Below are positions 368 to 9,610 of a stretch of DNA of 64,000 bases, piece after piece (the first letter of the stretch is position 1; each line of letters opens with the position of its first letter). The notes under the pieces are model-generated. The model worked only from the letters and a program-made list of their open reading frames with translations, was not told the origin of the DNA and ran no database searches. Origin of the DNA: Streptomyces sp. NBC_01549. Its GTDB lineage: Bacteria; Actinomycetota; Actinomycetes; Streptomycetales; Streptomycetaceae. Both the position numbers and the translations under genes were made by a program. Where the stretch lies: contig NZ_JAPEPW010000001.1 of assembly GCF_026339955.1 (NCBI RefSeq), positions 3,622,501-3,686,500 on the forward strand, in the 5' to 3' direction.

Positions 368-1624
368 TCACGGCGTGCTCAGCGTGGCGATCTCCGCCCC
401 CAGCTCCGCTACGCGGTGGTCCTTGCTCAGGGGGCCCAACTCATCGCACAGGGCTTGGAGTCTACGGGCGATGTACCCGGATGATGATGCTTGGGCCAAC
501 TGGACGGCCTCCCGTGCGTACGTCATGACTTGTTCCGGATCACGCCGCTTCGCACCGACGACAGCAAGATCGGTCAGTACAGCACCCCTGCGCCGGTACG
601 ACTGCCCGGAGGCAAGGGCGGTCTGGGCCAGGGCCTTCTGCAAGGCCTCCTCCGCCAGGTCGAGGCGGCCAAGCTGTACGTAGCGCGCTCCCCGTTCTTC
701 GGCCAGCCGCGTGCCATCGAAGCGCAACCAGCCACCGTTGGTGCTGCCCGTGGTCAGGTCCCTTACTTCCTCGGCCTTGCCCAATGCGCGCTCACATTCG
801 GTCAGGTCGCCCAGGCCGGCGTACGCCTCGGCTTGGACCGCAGCGACCCACTGACGGGTGGCGAGGATGCTGTCCCCTCGCTGCGCCAGTCTTTCCGCCG
901 CTACAAGGACCTGCGCCGCCTGACGGTAGCGCTGCTCGGACATGTCCACGTAGGCGTGCCGTACGAGGGCGCACGCCCAGAGGTCGTAGGCTCCGGCGTC
1001 CTTACTCACGGACGCCGCCAGGGAGTACGAGGCTGCCGCGTCGGTGTAGCGGTTGGCATCGAAGGCAACTTCTCCAGCCAACTGGAAGAGGTCGGCTGCC
1101 GCGTTCAGGAGTGGCCTGGAGTTGCCTCGGGTGTCCGCTGCCAGGGCTTCGTTCAGCGTGGCGAGCTGGTCGCGGACGACGGGGTAGACAGAGCCCTTGG
1201 AGCGGGCCAGTTGGTAGACCTGCCACAGGTGGCCGTTCATCCGCAGGAAGTCGGATGGTGCGCCTCTGCGCACCCCGTCTGTGAGGGCTTCGGCCTCATC
1301 CAGCGGCAGGGCTGCGAGGGCTCCACTGACAGTGAGGATGCGGAGGAATTCGCGGCGGATCATTTCGTCGGGGTCTCCCGCGCCTGGGTGGTCACTGGAC
1401 TGCTGCCCTGTGGCCTCCTGGCTGGCGGCTCGTGGCTGCGGCAGGAGGGCGTCAAGCTCGATGAGAGTGACTTCGAGGGCACTGGCCAAGCCCCGTCGTT
1501 GGGGTGGCTGGGGTTCGATCCTGCCGCTCTCCCAGCGTCCGACCGTTGTGCGGTCCACGCCAAGTAACTCGGCCAATTTCTCCTGACTGTAACCCAGGGT
1601 CTTGCGCCGTCCCGCCAGCCCCAT
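368..1624 (-). CDS. XRE-type HTH regulator with TPR-like C-terminal region
   Basis: About 418 aa. Residues 1-55 form a helix-turn-helix of the XRE/Cro type (YSQEKLAELLGVDRTTVGRWESG). A linker follows, then a long Ala/Leu-rich helical region with repeated A..Y..LG/A..L spacing typical of TPR arrays. I chose the ATG at 1624 because AGGGG lies just upstream; an in-frame start at 1669 would only add a basic leader. It diverges from the small-gene operon starting at 1780, so it probably controls that operon and itself. XRE-TPR proteins of Streptomyces often respond to small peptides or developmental state; no ligand can be inferred here. Confidence 0.8.
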   Translation of the reverse strand: MGLAGRRKTLGYSQEKLAELLGVDRTTVGRWESGRIEPQPPQRRGLASALEVTLIELDALLPQPRAASQEATGQQSSDHPGAGDPDEMIRREFLRILTVSGALAALPLDEAEALTDGVRRGAPSDFLRMNGHLWQVYQLARSKGSVYPVVRDQLATLNEALAADTRGNSRPLLNAAADLFQLAGEVAFDANRYTDAAASYSLAASVSKDAGAYDLWACALVRHAYVDMSEQRYRQAAQVLVAAERLAQRGDSILATRQWVAAVQAEAYAGLGDLTECERALGKAEEVRDLTTGSTNGGWLRFDGTRLAEERGARYVQLGRLDLAEEALQKALAQTALASGQSYRRRGAVLTDLAVVGAKRRDPEQVMTYAREAVQLAQASSSGYIARRLQALCDELGPLSKDHRVAELGAEIATLSTP

Positions 1625-1779: not shown

Positions 1780-2052
1780 ATGGCAGCGCAGAACGGCATG
1801 GCGCGTGATGGTCTCGGTTCCTCTCAGGCCCGGGGCCTCGGAGCTGACCCTCGCGTTCTCATGACGCTTCGCGTGTCCCGTGATTCCGGTCGTACCTGGC
1901 AGCAGAGCACGAGCGTCCGAGAGGGCGACCCGTTCGTCATCCTGTCCGATCCGGGCCGATACCCGCCCTGCGGGTGTGCCCGATGCACGGGCCACAACGC
2001 ACTGTCCGCCACTTCGCTCCGCCCGGCTGACATCGAGCCGAGGACGGCGTGA
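1780..2052 (+). CDS. Small hypothetical protein, first gene of the peptide operon
   Basis: 90 aa, starting at an ATG preceded by GGAAGGG. The protein has a hydrophilic N-terminal half and a Cys-containing segment (PPCGCARCTGHN) near residues 63-74 that could bind a metal. There is no signal peptide or membrane helix. Its stop TGA overlaps the GTG start of the next gene (GTGA), so translation is coupled. It lies directly opposite the XRE-TPR regulator. I do not recognise the family; it may be regulatory or part of peptide maturation. Confidence 0.6.
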   Translation: MAAQNGMARDGLGSSQARGLGADPRVLMTLRVSRDSGRTWQQSTSVREGDPFVILSDPGRYPPCGCARCTGHNALSATSLRPADIEPRTA

Positions 2053-2171
2053 GGTCTGGCTTACAGAACTGGGTGCTGCGCCGCTTCGGCCGGTACGCAG
2101 GTCCGCTCTACCTGGCCATGGTCCTCGGCGGCTCGGCCGTGTTCCTCGCCGGAGCCCTTGCGACGCGGTAG
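2049..2171 (+). CDS. 40-aa single-pass membrane miniprotein
   Basis: A 40-codon frame starts at the GTG overlapping the previous stop. It has a short basic N-terminus (VLRRFGRYAG) and one hydrophobic helix (PLYLAMVLGGSAVFLAGAL), ending ATR. Codon 5 is TTA, the rare leucine codon read by the bldA tRNA, so translation may be developmentally gated. The coupled start, plausible membrane topology and position between a small gene and the candidate precursor argue for a real gene. It could act in export, immunity or membrane docking. No homologue is recognised. Confidence 0.5.
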   Translation: MRSGLQNWVLRRFGRYAGPLYLAMVLGGSAVFLAGALATR

Positions 2172-2201
2172 CTGCCTCGAAGGCTGCTGCCTCCCGTTCC
2201 T

Positions 2202-2221
2202 CCCGCCGGATTCCCGGCGGG
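2202..2221 (+). terminator. Hairpin upstream of the candidate precursor peptide gene
   Basis: Perfect 8-bp stem CCCGCCGG / CCGGCGGG with an ATTC loop, followed by TGTTT. It sits between the 40-aa gene and the 45-aa peptide gene, 26 bases before the latter's start. It could act as a partial terminator or attenuator, or as an mRNA-processing or stabilising structure that sets the level of the peptide transcript. Confidence 0.55.
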
Positions 2222-2247
2222 TGTTTCCGAGTAGAGAGGTAAGTCCG

Positions 2248-2385
2248 ATGGTGGAAGAGAACACCGGTTCGGTGGCCCCCGAGGGGGGTGGCCTGCTCGT
2301 CGCGAAGCGCAAGATCGTGGCCGCGCGGACGCGTGCCGAGCAGGAGTCGGACGTCAGTAGCGGGCGTTCTGACGGCAACGACTGA
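2248..2385 (+). CDS. 45-aa candidate RiPP precursor peptide
   Basis: A 45-codon frame with a good ribosome-binding site (GAGAGG) before ATG at 2248. The N-terminal half is acidic/Gly-rich (MVEENTGSVAPEGGG); the middle is basic (LLVAKRKIVAARTRAEQ); the tail is Ser/Asp/Gly/Asn-rich. It has no membrane segment and no Cys. It precedes an oxygenase, a reductase-like protein and a kinase-like protein in one tight operon, the usual arrangement of a precursor followed by its tailoring enzymes. The core/leader division is unknown. Alternative: a small regulatory protein unrelated to a natural product. Confidence 0.55.
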   Translation: MVEENTGSVAPEGGGLLVAKRKIVAARTRAEQESDVSSGRSDGND

Positions 2386-2399
2386 CGGGGCTGCCCACG

Positions 2400-3587
2400 A
2401 TGCTTGATGCCGCCTCGTGGGCGGGGCGTCTGGGCGGGGACACGTTCCTCGCCCAGACGTACCACCGCTCCTACGCGCACTTCCCCGGCACCGCCGACAC
2501 GGCGGGCCTGTTCTCCTGGGACGACCTGAACCGGATTATCGCCACGCAACGACTGGAGCCACCCCGGCTGCGCCTGTCGATGGATGGCGAGATGGTTCCC
2601 CTTCACCGCTACGCGATCCCAACCACGAACCGCCGCGCGGTCACCTGGTCTCGCATCCAGCCGGCCGACTTCCACGCCCAGCTCAAGGACGGGGCGTCGC
2701 TGGTCCTCGATGCGGTCGAGAAGATCCACCCGGTGGTGGGTGCGGCTGCCGAAGGTCTTGAACGGTTCCTCGGCACGTCCGTGCAGGCCAACGCGTACGC
2801 CTCCTGGACTGATCGCGAAGGCTTCGGCCTGCACTGGGACGACCACGATGTCGTGGTGGTGCAGGTGCACGGCTCGAAGCGGTGGCGCTTGTACGGCTCC
2901 ACACGCGAGGCTCCGACCTTCCGGGACGTGGAGTCGCCAGACAGGCCCGAGGGCGACCCCGTGGCGGACATCGTTCTCGCCCCCGGTGACGTGCTCTACC
3001 TGCCACGCGGTTGGTGGCACGCGGTCACGGCTGACCAGGGGACGGAGTCGCTTCACCTGACGTTCGGCATGGTCCCGCACACGGGTGCGGACCTCATGCT
3101 CTGGGTCGTGGATCAGCTCCGGTCGTCCCTCGCTCTGCGCAGGGACATCCCCCGGTTTGCCTCACTGAGTGAGCACTCCGACTTCATCGCCGCGCTACGC
3201 GGTGAGGTGCTGAACGAACTGGCCGATCCCCGGTTGGTGGAGCGGTGGGCGGAGTCCATCGACACGACCGACCTGGGGCATGCGATTCCCTCTCTGCCCT
3301 ACGTGGACGGGCTGCCCGCACGTCCGGAGATCACGGTCAAGCTGACCGCCCCTCGGGGCCGCCTGACGGCGAACCCCGCCCACAGCACGGTCACGTTCTC
3401 GGCGGCCGGTACCGCCTGGGACTTCGCCGAGTCGGCCACGCCCGTCCTCGGTACGCTGCTGACCGGTCAGCCGACCACGCTCGGCGAGATGGCCGACTCC
3501 GCCGGACTGGAGATCAAGGACGTGGCCGAGCTGGTCTCCGCCCTCATCGAGGGCCATGCCGTCGCGGTCGTGGGGACCGCGCTGTGA
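2400..3587 (+). CDS. JmjC/cupin Fe(II)/2-oxoglutarate oxygenase
   Basis: 395 aa. The iron-binding triad of JmjC oxygenases is visible: H145 and D147 in GLHWDDHD and H207 in LPRGWWHAV, embedded in the double-stranded beta-helix. The C-terminal 50 residues (LGEMADSAGLEIKDVAELVSAL region) look like a small winged helix. This resembles bacterial ribosomal-protein hydroxylases (RoxA/YcfD type) and also the small recognition domains of RiPP enzymes. Expected chemistry is hydroxylation of a peptide or protein side chain using O2 and 2-oxoglutarate. It starts 15 bases after the 45-aa peptide gene and overlaps the next gene by GTGA, so the peptide is the obvious candidate substrate. Confidence 0.85.
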   Translation: MLDAASWAGRLGGDTFLAQTYHRSYAHFPGTADTAGLFSWDDLNRIIATQRLEPPRLRLSMDGEMVPLHRYAIPTTNRRAVTWSRIQPADFHAQLKDGASLVLDAVEKIHPVVGAAAEGLERFLGTSVQANAYASWTDREGFGLHWDDHDVVVVQVHGSKRWRLYGSTREAPTFRDVESPDRPEGDPVADIVLAPGDVLYLPRGWWHAVTADQGTESLHLTFGMVPHTGADLMLWVVDQLRSSLALRRDIPRFASLSEHSDFIAALRGEVLNELADPRLVERWAESIDTTDLGHAIPSLPYVDGLPARPEITVKLTAPRGRLTANPAHSTVTFSAAGTAWDFAESATPVLGTLLTGQPTTLGEMADSAGLEIKDVAELVSALIEGHAVAVVGTAL

Positions 3588-4489
3588 CCGCCGCCCTCTC
3601 CCTGGGGACATACCGCGTGCGTGCCGTCAGTCAGGCGGCACGCACCGCCCTGGCTGCCGGTAGCCCCTGGGTGGACACAGCACCCAACTACGCCCACGGT
3701 GGAGCACACGAGGCGCTGCGCCCGGTTCTCGGCGAGTACCCCACCGTTCGGGTGGCCACGAAGACAGGGTTCTTCACGGAGGAGCAGGGGCGCACGGCGC
3801 TGGCTGAGGGCGCGCTTACTCGGGAGGAGGCGGCCGGTAGGCACAGCCTTGAACCGGGCTTCGTTCGCTGGCAGACGGAGCGTTCGTTGGGCGCACTCGG
3901 CCGCGCCGACCTGGTGTTCGTGCACAACCCTGAGCACCACGGGCACGGCCTTGACCGTGCCGCTCTGCACTGGCGTGTGCGGGAAGCCTTCACGGCGTTG
4001 GAGGAGTTCGTCCATGCGGGCAGGATCGGCGGGTACGGCGTCGCCACCTGGACGGGCCTGACCTCCGAAGCGTTCACGGTTCCCGAGTTGCTTGGGCTCG
4101 CCCGACAGGCGGCGGGTTCCGCCGAGCACCACTTCACAGGGTTGCAGATGCCCGTCAGTCTGATCATGGATGACCTGATCAGGCAGGCACTCGACGGCGG
4201 CGGACCGCTGGTGCAGGCGAAGGACGCGGGGCTGATCACGTTCGGCTCCGCCCCTCTGCACGGCGGCGAACTGCTGGATGCCATGACACCTGAACTGGTG
4301 AACTTCATCCGTCCCGGCCTGTCGGCCGCAGCCGCTGCCCTGCTGGCTGCCGGATCGTGCCCCGGCCTCGATGTCGTCCTGACTTCCGCGAGCACCCGCG
4401 AACACTGGGACGATGCGGCGAAGGCTCTGGCTGCGCCCCTGACGGCCGAGGAACTGAGGAGGGTGACCGATGAACTCGCCGCCGAGTGA
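3584..4489 (+). CDS. Aldo/keto reductase family protein
   Basis: About 301 aa from the GTG that overlaps the preceding stop. The AKR catalytic tetrad can be placed: D31 and Y36 in VDTAPNYAHGG, K60 in VATKTGF and H114 in LVFVHNPEH. The length matches the family's usual 280-330 residues. Such enzymes reduce carbonyls with NADPH, or run in reverse. In this operon it could reduce or oxidise a group made by the JmjC enzyme on the peptide. It overlaps the next gene by 20 bases, indicating tight co-translation. Confidence 0.8.
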   Translation: MTAALSLGTYRVRAVSQAARTALAAGSPWVDTAPNYAHGGAHEALRPVLGEYPTVRVATKTGFFTEEQGRTALAEGALTREEAAGRHSLEPGFVRWQTERSLGALGRADLVFVHNPEHHGHGLDRAALHWRVREAFTALEEFVHAGRIGGYGVATWTGLTSEAFTVPELLGLARQAAGSAEHHFTGLQMPVSLIMDDLIRQALDGGGPLVQAKDAGLITFGSAPLHGGELLDAMTPELVNFIRPGLSAAAAALLAAGSCPGLDVVLTSASTREHWDDAAKALAAPLTAEELRRVTDELAAE

Positions 4490-5324
4490 GGACGTACAGA
4501 CGCTGATGGAGGCTGCCCACGACAGGGCGGCGAAGGCTCTGGGTCTCACGTGTACGGGTCCGCTGGCCTGGGGGTTCCAAGGGGTGACCCTCGGTCGGCA
4601 GGCGGGGGAGCGGTGGCTACGGGTGGGCCGGACGGCCAGGAGGAACGAAGGCAGGAAGCAGGGGGAGGGCATCGTGGGTGCCTCCCTGCTGGTGCCTGAC
4701 GCGGTCCCGCGCCCGAGCCTGTACGAGGTGCACGACTGGACTGACGGGGAGTGGGCCTTCGAGGCCGAAGTCCTCGACTACGTGACGCACCCCGTCGTGT
4801 CCCCGGAGCGGGCCGACCTGGACCGCGACCCCGGCTTGCCTGACGAGTGGTGGGCCGACCTGCGCCGAGCCCTGGCCCTGCTCGCTGAGGCGGAGGGAGT
4901 AAAGGTCACCGTCCGGGACGGGTGGATCGAACGCGCCTTCCCCCAGTTCCTCGGCATCCCTGCCCCGGCCAAGGTGGAGCGGGTGACCGGTCATGGTGAC
5001 CTGCACTGGGGCAACCTCACGACCATGCCCCTGACCCTGCTGGACTGGGAGCGGTGGGGCCTGGTGCCCTACGGCTACGACGTGGGTCTTCTTCACGCGA
5101 ACAGCCTGCTCGTTCCCGATGTGGCGGACCGCATCCGGCTGGAGTTCGCTTCGGTCCTGGACACCCCAGCCGGCCGAGTTGGGGAGCTTGCGGCCCTGGC
5201 GGAGATGCTGCAAGCGGTAGCCCGTGGCTGGTACCCGGACCTAGCCCCGCACCTTCTCGCTCGGGCGGAGTCACTCACGGGCGTTCGGCCGCCGGTTCCC
5301 CTTCACTCAGAGGTCAGCGCCTGA
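4470..5324 (+). CDS. Phosphotransferase (APH/choline-kinase fold) protein
   Basis: 284 aa. The kinase-like catalytic loop H175-G-D177-L-H179-WGN and the metal-binding LLDWE (D192) of the aminoglycoside phosphotransferase superfamily are clear. The N-terminal lobe is short and lacks an obvious Gly-rich loop, as is common in this superfamily. It is the last gene of the operon and ends shortly before a strong terminator hairpin. It may phosphorylate the modified peptide or a small molecule, or give self-protection. An antibiotic-resistance role is possible but nothing in the context specifically supports it. Confidence 0.78.
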   Translation: MNSPPSEDVQTLMEAAHDRAAKALGLTCTGPLAWGFQGVTLGRQAGERWLRVGRTARRNEGRKQGEGIVGASLLVPDAVPRPSLYEVHDWTDGEWAFEAEVLDYVTHPVVSPERADLDRDPGLPDEWWADLRRALALLAEAEGVKVTVRDGWIERAFPQFLGIPAPAKVERVTGHGDLHWGNLTTMPLTLLDWERWGLVPYGYDVGLLHANSLLVPDVADRIRLEFASVLDTPAGRVGELAALAEMLQAVARGWYPDLAPHLLARAESLTGVRPPVPLHSEVSA

Positions 5325-5392: not shown

Positions 5393-6226
5393 TCAGGCGC
5401 TCTCTCCCAGGTGGCGGTACAACGTGGCGCGGCCGATTCCCAGAGCCTTGGCGATGGCTGTGACGCTGTCTCCCTTGGCGTGCCGGGCACGGGCTACGGC
5501 GAGCTTGTCGTCATCCAAGACGGACGGCCGCCCACCGACGTTGCCCTTGCGGGCCGCAGCCTCCAACCCTTCCAACGTCTTCTCCCGGATGCCCTCCCGC
5601 TCCACCTCTGCACTCACGGCGAGCACGGCGAACACGATGGCACCCGCCCCGTTCGGGTCGTACACACCCTGAAGGGGACCGGACAGGAGTTCCAGTTGGA
5701 TGCCGTCCGCCTGAAGGGTGGAAGACAGAGTCATCAGCTCTGCCGCACTGCGGGCAAGCCGCTTCATTTCGACCACGGTCAGGATGACCGGCTGATTCGG
5801 CGCGGCTGCCTTGATCTCCCGTGCCAGAGTGAGCGCCTTCTCCAGTTCCGGCCGCTCCTTCACACGGGTGCTGATCTTCTCCGAGAAGACTCGGGTGCAG
5901 TCGGCACGGGCAAGCATGTCCAACTGGGACTGGAGTTCCTGTCCAACGGTTGAGCAACGGGCGTAGCCCAGTCGGATCGCTGCGCCCGGTATCGCGTCGG
6001 GTACCTGCGGAACGGGAACGCCTGCCGTCCATGCCTTGCCGGGGTTGCGGTCGGCCGGAGTCTTCACGGTCAGTTCTGCCTTGAGCGCGGGCACCAGGGC
6101 GAAGCGGCCCGTGTGGTAGTTCGCTGCCACCTTGCCCGTGGTCGTGCGGCAGGGGCTACCGGCGGGGGCTTCGCACTTCGGGCAGGCGTGGCGTTCGACC
6201 TGTGCGGCCGGGGTGTTCGTGGTCAT
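5393..6226 (-). CDS. Small serine recombinase (resolvase/invertase) with N-terminal zinc-ribbon-like domain
   Basis: 277 aa. Residues 15-38 carry C15, C18, C26 and H38, a plausible zinc site. The resolvase catalytic domain begins at about residue 84 (IRLGYARCSTVGQ) with nucleophile S92, followed by the conserved long helix. A Hin-type HTH closes the protein (VTAIAKALGIGRATLYRHLG). Such enzymes resolve dimers, invert DNA or regulate by binding. The start lies next to a GAGAC-C-GTCTC palindrome and a repeat-rich segment, so those repeats are candidate recombination or operator sites. It is distinct from the large integrase at 8201-9610. Confidence 0.88.
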   Translation of the reverse strand: MTTNTPAAQVERHACPKCEAPAGSPCRTTTGKVAANYHTGRFALVPALKAELTVKTPADRNPGKAWTAGVPVPQVPDAIPGAAIRLGYARCSTVGQELQSQLDMLARADCTRVFSEKISTRVKERPELEKALTLAREIKAAAPNQPVILTVVEMKRLARSAAELMTLSSTLQADGIQLELLSGPLQGVYDPNGAGAIVFAVLAVSAEVEREGIREKTLEGLEAAARKGNVGGRPSVLDDDKLAVARARHAKGDSVTAIAKALGIGRATLYRHLGESA

Positions 6227-8200: not shown

Positions 8201-9610
8201 CTACGCGTCGGGGTCGTCGTCGGCGGTGTGGTTCCAGTCCACGGACATGTAGTCGTCCACGGTCATCTTCGCCGCCTTCTTGAAGCCGTTCGAGTGCATC
8301 GTGATCGTGGTGACGAACTTGACCCACGCTCGACGTACGGGGAGTGGAGCGTTCGGCCAGTCCTGAATCAGGCCAGCGATGCCAGACACGGGATCGATCG
8401 GGGGGAGGCCGGTAACACCGGACAGCTTTTCGTCGATCGTGTTCAGCCTGGCCCGGATCGCCTCGGTACCGGCCGTCATCTGCGACAGGGTGATCGATCC
8501 CGAAGCGTAGGCCAGAGCCAACCCGTCGAGCCGCTCCCGCAGGGTCTGCGCTTCCTGGTGAAGGTGAGCCGAGTCGTCTCCCTGCTCCTGTCGAGCGCCG
8601 AGGACCCAAGGCAGGAAGTCGGGGAAGACGATCCGCGCCAGGACAGCGTTACCAGCTCGCGTGTCGGCCAGCTCTCGGGGCACGCGCACGTGCTTCTGTC
8701 CGCAGCGGTAGACCGGTGTCCCTCGGTACATGCCGCCTCGCACGGTCTCCCCGCAACGCCCGCACGTGGCCAGTCCGGCGAGCAGGGTCTGAGGGGCCGA
8801 GCCGGTACGTGCGCCACCCGTGAACCGCTTGGGATTCGTCAGTGCCGACACGACGGCGTAGTGCGTCGCCTCGTCCAGGATCGCGGGCCACCGGCCCTCG
8901 CCCATCACCTCGCCCCGGTAGGTGGACTGAGCGATGTACCGAGGGGAGATGAGGACCTTCTTCACCCCGCCTACGCCCCACCCCTTCGCTTCGCCCTTCG
9001 CAGTGCCGGACGACGAGCGAGGAGCGAGCAGGCCGAGGCCGGTCCAGTAGCGGGCGACAGCCGCCAGGGTCTCGCCCTGAAGAACCATCTCGGCGCCCTT
9101 GCGGATCGCTTCCGCCTCGTCCTCGACCACGGTCACGTAGTCGTCGGCGTATCCGAAGGTTCGCAAGCCCGCCTTGTGCGGCTTGCCGTTCTTCGCCGCC
9201 TGAAGATTCGACGCCTTCTGCCGTAGCGCCTTCTGCTCGCCTTCGTACTCCGCCCACGCCGTAACCGTCTTGGCCGTGGCTCGACCGGCCGGAGTCGCGA
9301 GGTCAAGGTGTCCGGCGTGGATGGCATGGACGTTGATCCCGAGTGCGATCACTCGCAGCAGGTCTTCCGTCTTGCGTACGAGCCGGTCAGTGTGCCAACA
9401 GAGGATCGCGTCCGGCTTGGACGCCAACAGCCGCTCGAACCCCGGTCGCACCTTGCCCGAGGTGGCGCTGACGTCGTTGTCCGCGATTACCTCTCGTACG
9501 GTCCAGCCACGGGCTGCGGCGAACGCCCGACACTCGTCCTCCTGCCGCTGAACGCCCAACTCGTCGCCGTGCTGATCGAGGCTGAGTCGTACGTAGATGG
9601 TGACGTCCAC
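8201..9610 (-). CDS. Large serine recombinase, integrase of the element
   Basis: 469 aa from a GTG preceded by GGGGGGCAGGAC. The resolvase catalytic domain is N-terminal with nucleophile S10 (YVRLSLDQHG) and the CWHTDRLVR motif. It is followed by the recombinase DNA-binding domain, a zinc ribbon (CGRCGE ... YRCGQKH) and a helical C-terminal region. This domain order defines large serine integrases, which recombine short attP/attB sites without a need for tRNA targets. The start codon is within about 50 bp of the truncated MFS gene, as expected when int sits beside attR. It is the element's insertion and, with an excision factor, excision enzyme. Confidence 0.93.
   Translation of the reverse strand: MDVTIYVRLSLDQHGDELGVQRQEDECRAFAAARGWTVREVIADNDVSATSGKVRPGFERLLASKPDAILCWHTDRLVRKTEDLLRVIALGINVHAIHAGHLDLATPAGRATAKTVTAWAEYEGEQKALRQKASNLQAAKNGKPHKAGLRTFGYADDYVTVVEDEAEAIRKGAEMVLQGETLAAVARYWTGLGLLAPRSSSGTAKGEAKGWGVGGVKKVLISPRYIAQSTYRGEVMGEGRWPAILDEATHYAVVSALTNPKRFTGGARTGSAPQTLLAGLATCGRCGETVRGGMYRGTPVYRCGQKHVRVPRELADTRAGNAVLARIVFPDFLPWVLGARQEQGDDSAHLHQEAQTLRERLDGLALAYASGSITLSQMTAGTEAIRARLNTIDEKLSGVTGLPPIDPVSGIAGLIQDWPNAPLPVRRAWVKFVTTITMHSNGFKKAAKMTVDDYMSVDWNHTADDDPDA

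Follow-up and report, generated by a model that had tools for sequence, protein, structure and literature searches.

A peptide of 45 residues encoded with a JmjC oxygenase, an aldo/keto reductase and an APH-fold protein in Streptomyces: a candidate RiPP class

A short peptide gene lying immediately ahead of enzyme genes raises the question of whether the peptide is the substrate of these enzymes, a partner of one of them or an incidental neighbour. The question is addressed here for a set of four genes, encoding a 45-residue peptide, a JmjC oxygenase, an aldo/keto reductase (AKR) and an APH-fold protein, which occupies positions 2248-5324 of the plus strand in a window of 64,000 nucleotides from Streptomyces sp. 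NBC_01549 (contig NZ_JAPEPW010000001.1, positions 3,622,501 to 3,686,500); the window denotes the whole stretch of DNA that was analysed. A preliminary description of the locus, made from the letters alone, regarded it as a compact operon resembling those of the ribosomally synthesised and post-translationally modified peptides (RiPPs) and could assign it to no named class. The present analysis supports this view, as the peptide is linked with the oxygenase in both directions, its frame is conserved and the combination of enzymes was not found in the literature. Judging from sequence, a self-contained RiPP pathway with the 45-residue peptide as its substrate is the probable function, the modification itself being predicted. 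The best reading is a candidate RiPP class in which the JmjC enzyme would act first on an Asp/Asn-rich core. The main features are as follows.

2248..2385, plus strand: precursor-like peptide of 45 residues, MVEENTGSVAPEGGGLLVAKRKIVAARTRAEQESDVSSGRSDGND, preceded by AGAGAGG, with homologues directly upstream of JmjC and an in-frame ratio of nonsynonymous to synonymous polymorphism (pN/pS) of 0.28
2290..2328, plus strand: conserved leader segment, peptide residues 15-27, of the pattern G-L-L-x-A-x-R-x-I-x-A-A-R, proposed as a recognition motif
2347..2382, plus strand: candidate core, peptide residues 34-45, SDVSSGRSDGND, of the pattern S-D-x(3,4)-G-[RKV]-[STG]-D-x-N-D (pN/pS 0.12 for codons 32-45)
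2400..3587, plus strand: JmjC (PF08007) Fe(II)/2-oxoglutarate oxygenase of 395 residues with the metal site H145/D147/H207 (Pfam JmjC_2, 1.3e-30; NO66 and MINA53 in the PDB)
3315..3584, plus strand: C-terminal winged-helix domain of the JmjC protein, a candidate peptide-recognition domain (model of the L071 homologue; ROXA-like_wH)
3584..4489, plus strand: AKR of 301 residues with a GTG start and an intact tetrad D31/Y36/K60/H114 (Pfam Aldo_ket_red, 3.6e-15)
4470..5324, plus strand: APH-fold kinase-like protein of 284 residues with the motifs HGDLHWGN and DWE (D177, N182, D192; Pfam APH, 1.3e-4; AlphaFold2 model)

The genes are closely packed, with 14 nt between the stop of the peptide and JmjC and overlaps of 4 nt (JmjC/AKR) and 20 nt (AKR/APH), in agreement with the overlapping or nearly touching genes reported earlier.

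Operons for comparison were drawn from 79 loci of named genomes, from genus loci, from five plasmid loci and from the loci of a class-wide peptide search. The named-genome loci were taken as the best 80 of 178 matches, so that the sample is tilted to close relatives. A JmjC identity cut of 39% and the collapsing of near-identical JmjC proteins gave 104 distinct operons; L116-L121 (JmjC of 36-39% identity without AKR and APH, L116 with a weak peptide match of 0.028) were removed by hand, as were L023/L079, in which JmjC is split by an insertion, and loci such as L110, where JmjC runs past the end of the stretch, were left uncounted. The peptide lies upstream of JmjC in 103 of the 104 operons, and in the remaining one (L109) only a peptide tail, GKGDGND followed by a stop, is left just before the intact JmjC start. 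All four genes are present in 92 operons. Nine others carry the peptide, JmjC and AKR on stretches that end before the position of APH; longer stretches, examined for seven of these from a further family of the class, gave all three enzymes in order (7/7), the remaining two being L138 and L139. The peptide, JmjC and APH occur without AKR in two operons (L090, L107), and JmjC and APH with the peptide tail only in one (L109), where an opposite-strand open reading frame (ORF) was seen to cover the region of the reduced peptide gene just upstream of position 5968.

A profile built from 28 peptides was searched in 394 genomes of the class and 392 of the genus. The class-wide search returned 13 strong matches (about 2e-12 or better), each beside a JmjC gene (13/13), and 15 weak matches (E above 1e-4) without JmjC within the 2-3 kb examined, 14 of which look like chance. 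In the genus, 56 peptide places were found in 52 of the 392 genomes, a patchy yet common occurrence, with a weakest match of 6e-11 and none between this value and the limit of 1e-4. For 54 of the 56 places, a JmjC gene of the same strand starts at most 200 nt away; the two exceptions adjoin JmjC remnants (L241, L245; one gene truncated, one interrupted). In the converse comparison, with 65 JmjC rows chosen among the matches listed (at least 40% identity; row G018 left out), 11 rows had no peptide match in reach; some of these are fragments or the latter halves of split genes, and the others come from the AKR-less L109 genome and from another branch (G357). Operons regularly lacking the peptide, which the preliminary description had named as evidence that would count against it, were thus sought in both directions and not found. 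The operon is real, widespread, co-inherited and under selection.

Some disrupted or partial loci were also observed. JmjC is truncated or split by an insert of about 2-2.5 kb in L079 (also L023, G241), L245 and L241, an intact peptide lying directly before the first part, and L242 has a JmjC fragment without a peptide match in reach and with intact AKR and APH. The fifteenth weak match of the class-wide search (L150) stands with AKR, APH and a leader or small peptide frame of the sister type described below, with no JmjC within the 3.1 kb examined.

The pN/pS values were calculated for close relatives only, comprising 33 distinct DNA sequences, 25 distinct peptides and 38 loci. The peptide frame has a value of 0.279, against 1.368 and 1.989 in the other two frames, and along the peptide the value is 0.617 for codons 1-15, 0.170 for codons 16-31 and 0.121 for codons 32-45; the values for the enzymes are 0.22 for JmjC (31 sequences), 0.37 for AKR (27) and 0.28 for APH (28). 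The contrast between the frames indicates that the peptide frame is translated and that the C-terminus is its most constrained part. Purifying selection acts on this frame, most strongly in the C-terminal SDxxxGxxDxND segment, and the conservation on which the earlier proposal had staked its case is therefore observed.

In the 28-row alignment of the peptides, M1, L16, A26, R27, S34, D35, G39, D42, N44 and D45 (window numbering) are invariant and G15, A25 and R29 nearly so; outside this alignment S34 is replaced by Pro in L107 and by Gly in L111. The core was tallied in 102 operons, which exclude L109 (no peptide match) and L111 (misfit to the pattern owing to its Gly). Position 34 is S in 101 and P in 1, position 40 is R in 77, K in 19 and V in 6, position 41 is S in 78, T in 20 and G in 4, and the residue between D42 and N44 is G in 59, T in 17, M in 13, S in 6, Q in 4 and L in 3. 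D45 is not necessarily the C-terminus, since 27 peptides run 1-4 residues further. The two AKR-less loci whose peptide is readable have Gly at position 41, as does the tail of L109, and 98 of the 100 AKR-bearing loci have Ser or Thr at this position, the exceptions being L144 and L148 (Fisher p 0.001, uncorrected for relatedness). None of the 28 aligned peptides has a Cys in the core segment, and one has a Cys in its C-terminal tail. In the five plasmids examined, the peptide carries the annotation of a hypothetical protein; the window peptide has no Pfam or NCBIfam model, and a search of the 28 peptides against NCBIfam gave no model apart from a single chance-level match (0.037).

Sister operons of the same genus, in which JmjC is about 30% identical, carry AKR, APH and a diverged upstream peptide in 25 loci (L122, L123, L125, L127, L133 and 20/20 of L192-L211). 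The distant JmjC stretches from which they come were a first 20 and a further 20, the latter chosen by match range and identity, not by their neighbours; AKR and APH are adjacent in five of the first 20 and not in the other 15 (L116-L121, L124, L126, L128-L132, L134, L135). The sister peptides have a similar leader (for example LLVAVEELTAVHDR) and a changed core, mostly of the SDNQGSSGDAPWPGGDGNLTDIE kind and otherwise SDPTGTSAGDDGENRDGLN; the cores were also typed as mostly GDAPWPGGDGNLTD-like, or else GDDGENRDGLN-like. SD, glycine spacers and an Asp-Gly-Asn-like stretch are, by eye, common to the main and the sister cores, and the APH gene is convergent in 24 sister loci and co-directional in L200. 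The locus has the genetic make-up of a RiPP pathway, an encoded precursor peptide adjoining the putative modifying enzymes. A leader/core organisation is possible, the main operons having a conserved leader motif and a conserved core, and the sister operons a similar leader and a changed core.

Among the distant JmjC genes without adjacent AKR and APH, L124 and L130 have small ORFs before JmjC (4592-4765, 57 residues, and 4610-4807, 65 residues, respectively, on the flipped strand), which are possible further peptide-oxygenase pairs. L116 and L244, likewise without AKR and APH, have a JmjC gene of 39-40% identity near a formyltransferase-like ORF (judged by its start) and a 752-residue ORF, and their locus looks like another pathway.

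The JmjC protein has the JmjC fold, and its metal site (H145, D147, H207) is kept in 104/104 operons. The homologue from L071 was modelled with its own peptide as one chain, the intervening stop being read as Gly, with a pLDDT (predicted local distance difference test) of 84.8 and a pTM (predicted template modelling score) of 0.83. Residues 52-448 of this model match NO66 with a VIA Z of 23.5 (root mean square deviation, rmsd, 6.9; 374 aligned), MINA53 with 22.6 and YcfD with 22.0. These three enzymes act on ribosomal proteins and have the same order of JmjC, helical linker and C-terminal winged helix, at an identity of only 16-21%. The enzyme could accordingly be a ribosomal-protein hydroxylase beside which the peptide is incidental, an alternative that the preliminary description had raised and leaned against. 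The shared three-domain architecture and the ROXA-like winged helix fit this alternative, which is opposed by the near-universal link of peptide and JmjC in both directions, the patchy distribution in 52 of 392 genus genomes, the dedicated and co-inherited AKR and APH neighbours and the copies on plasmids. NO66, MINA53 and YcfD are not known to occur in peptide operons. A ribosomal hydroxylase alone is hence rejected on genomic context, not on fold, and we consider it very improbable.

In the L071 model, the C-terminal part of the JmjC protein consists of four strands, three helices and one strand. The RiPP recognition element (RRE) is defined as three strands followed by three helices in PMC12710340, and the order in the present domain fits this definition, plus one more strand. 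By sequence, the domain matches ROXA-like_wH in 7 of 15 members and HTH_15 in 10 of 15, and a PDB profile search with it for a sequence-based RRE assignment gave chance-level matches only. Residues 16-21 of the L071 peptide (LVAARR), which fall within the conserved leader motif, are modelled as a beta strand, and the pLDDT of the peptide is 79 in block 11-20 and below 60 in the other blocks. The partner of this strand should be in the enzyme, because no other residue of the peptide sits in a strand. The structure prediction suggested earlier for the peptide-oxygenase pair, run as this fused chain, therefore yielded a leader strand and no docking of the core, which is modelled with low confidence.

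It may also be considered that the peptide is a small obligate partner of JmjC, such as an activator, a scaffold or an assembly factor, and that the enzymes act on a small molecule or on another protein. Such a role would agree with the pN/pS of 0.12 in the C-terminal segment, against 0.22-0.37 in the enzymes, with the AARxR stretch, which looks helix-prone, and with the annotation of five loci, where neither an exporter nor a protease directly adjoins the operon. It is at odds with the Asp/Asn-rich C-terminus, modelled at low confidence without secondary structure rather than docking, with the division of labour between leader and core apparent from the sister operons and with the differing core position 41 of the AKR-less loci, and is regarded here as quite unlikely.

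The other two enzymes are likewise conserved in the residues named in the preliminary description. D31, Y36, K60 and H114 of the AKR are each kept in 91/92 sequences, with one gap, and the D-Y-K-H tetrad and a Pfam match above the cut-off place the protein in the AKR family; its profile matches the PDB structures of IolS and aflatoxin aldehyde reductase (AFAR) weakly (best 5e-6). In the APH-fold protein, D177 is kept in 81/84 (3 gaps) and N182 and D192 in 80/84 each (3 gaps and one other residue, Lys at D192). Its Pfam score of 22.2 bits is slightly below the cut-off of 23.2. The AlphaFold2 model (pLDDT 93.8, pTM 0.89) has an APH-family fold, with a putative APH as the best structural match (VIA Z 15.6, rmsd 3.6 over 243 residues) and the lexapeptide kinase LxmK (Z 13.5) among many near-tied kinases; by sequence, its profile gave no useful E-value against PDB chains (best 0.73). 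The fold and the HxDxxxxN and D(F/W) motifs are those of APH-type phosphotransferases, the activity being predicted. We infer the activity classes of the JmjC, AKR and APH proteins from family membership.

The simplest scheme that uses all the parts would run from leader docking through hydroxylation to redox and phosphoryl steps. Docking would be by the leader, which would probably add a beta strand to the winged helix at the C-terminus of JmjC; this enzyme would be the first to act, hydroxylating an Asp or Asn in the D-x-N-D stretch. The APH-fold protein would then phosphorylate the new or a neighbouring hydroxyl, and the AKR would perform carbonyl/alcohol redox around residue 41 (Ser/Thr), a reaction absent from some operons. 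The AKR step may be late or optional, because JmjC and APH are kept in three loci without AKR. The leader would be removed and the product released by proteins not encoded in the operon, unless the product stays in the cell. This particular chemistry of hydroxylation, phosphorylation and AKR redox, taken together, is put forward tentatively.

Several known systems share single elements with this operon. The LxmK/TvaC-type kinases of class V lanthipeptides and thioamitides are APH-fold proteins that act in RiPP maturation; unlike lanthipeptides and thioamitides, the 45-residue peptide has no Cys. Pyrroloquinoline quinone (PQQ) and mycofactocin arise from peptide precursors with an invariant core and yield one fixed product, whereas no radical S-adenosylmethionine (SAM) enzyme is present in the four-gene set. 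Macrocyclisation by 2-oxoglutarate dioxygenases in RiPPs is reportedly the subject of a JACS paper of 2025. In the biphenomycin pathway, according to PMC12707348, BipG is a JmjC-domain Fe(II)/2-oxoglutarate ornithine hydroxylase acting on a RiPP precursor, in a cluster with a multinuclear non-haem iron-dependent oxidase (MNIO), a B12-radical SAM enzyme, an arginase, a protease and a major facilitator superfamily (MFS) transporter; here, in contrast, JmjC is accompanied by AKR and APH, and the core is without conserved Phe, Tyr or Cys. Fusions of JmjC (PF08007) and RRE are described in fish and algae, with the closest bacterial homologues in RiPP-like contexts, in the available sections of PMC12710340, and the present protein is similar in combining a PF08007 enzyme with a winged-helix domain that is a candidate for peptide binding. 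For the fusions, those sections give neither a precursor nor enzyme partners nor a class, and 'aldo' and 'aminoglycoside' are absent from the main text. No description of a JmjC-AKR-APH peptide class was present among the best-ranked matches in the open-licence literature; the main text of PMC7794033 has no mention of JmjC, cupin, dioxygenase or aldo, and PMC11002830 none of JmjC, cupin or 2-oxoglutarate. Peptide-modifying JmjC enzymes and RRE fusions are thus already known, and the enzyme combination, the peptide and its invariant core are new.

Several observations weigh against a RiPP pathway with this peptide as substrate. Variability is lower in the core than in the leader, the reverse of the usual RiPP pattern. 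The link between position 41 and AKR comes from two or three loci, which are possibly related, and is broken by L144 and L148. JmjC genes of 36-39% identity in L117-L121 have no AKR, APH or clear peptide beside them (L116 has a weak peptide match only), and nine JmjC relatives of lower identity have no AKR and APH next to them. PF05402 is absent from the models matched by the C-terminal domain, which are ROXA-like_wH and general HTH ones, and the leader strand could be an artefact of tethering the peptide to the enzyme. Further, the annotation of the five plasmid loci, in which many neighbours are hypothetical and some genes are missing from the table, shows neither an exporter nor a peptidase as a direct neighbour of the operon, an unusual situation for a secreted RiPP; in L114, MFS genes lie within 8 kb on either side, apparently in another cluster.

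The invariant core suggests one fixed product. It is conceivable, if rather unlikely, that the operon excises from a ribosomal peptide a single fixed molecule, which may be intracellular and would be nearer to PQQ or mycofactocin than to a bacteriocin, because the core is the most conserved part and neither an exporter nor a protease is annotated directly beside the five loci. The oxidise-reduce-phosphorylate set would then convert the side chain of an Asp or Asn residue into a group resembling a small molecule.

A further gene is likely to be associated with the operon in the window.

368..1624, minus strand: divergent HTH/TPR regulator of the NsdA family, a likely but not constant partner (NF053720, 2.6e-42, 145.8 bits against a cut-off of 75)

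The divergent TPR regulator of the preliminary description is therefore present in the window, and its standing as a constant part was not upheld, no relative being found in many loci; some have another upstream gene in its place, or none that passes the filter. L111 has an annotated divergent TPR protein, and relatives of the window regulator are present in several other loci. This raises the possibility of a peptide-signalling module, in which the modified peptide or a fragment of it would be the ligand of the regulator and control plasmid or developmental functions. A regulator of this type in the window, L111 and further loci and an invariant core, such as a ligand of a single receptor should have, are consistent with signalling; the many loci without a relative of the regulator, the loci with another upstream gene or none that passes the filter, and the lack of import or export genes directly beside the operon in the five plasmid loci are not, and the idea is considered unlikely. 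As it concerns function, it is compatible with the RiPP reading.

Two small ORFs sit between the regulator and the peptide in a subset of relatives, one at 1780-2052 (90 residues, with a PPCGCARCTG motif) and a hydrophobic one at 2049-2171 (40 residues). Both were dropped as parts of the system, no relative of them being found in many operons. The interval of 1780-5324 first given for the operon accordingly holds for the four genes at 2248-5324, and the ORFs at 1780-2171 are not part of its core.

The operon is carried by Streptomyces, Kitasatospora, Streptacidiphilus, Wenjunlia and a further family of the same class. Its earlier portrayal as element-borne is correct for the five operons examined on plasmids and does not extend to others, which lie within large chromosomal contigs. 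Downstream of the operon in the window, on the minus strand, are recombinase genes with resolvase domains at 5393-6226 (a resolvase-type gene with a phage zinc-finger domain) and 8201-9610 (a large serine recombinase gene), which fit a mobile setting. In G064:C1, two equal-scoring JmjC copies (22144 and 8477925) lie near both ends of one 8.5-Mb contig, placed as if in terminal inverted repeats, and in G012 and G296 the JmjC gene is less than 50 kb from a contig end. No HopA1-like lyase, cyclase or YcaO partner is annotated in the five plasmid loci, many genes of which are hypothetical. A phage-gene origin of JmjC was rejected, a tblastn search against 50,697 phage records giving no match, though the protein resembles one PHROG, whose function is not assigned (3.3e-21). 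An anti-phage defence system was likewise rejected, as PADLOC gave no match for the peptide, JmjC and AKR (E 0.1) and for APH only 0.0097 to a pAgo model.

The operon provides a defined candidate substrate of about 45 residues for a branch of JmjC enzymes so far without known targets. The candidate peptide is paired with an AKR and with a kinase-like protein of APH fold. A variant without AKR occurs naturally, as does a sister system whose core differs, and a cassette of four genes is easy to express and test. If the product is indeed a single fixed molecule, it would represent a new peptide-derived cofactor, signal or inhibitor on the chromosomes and plasmids of Streptomyces and its relatives.

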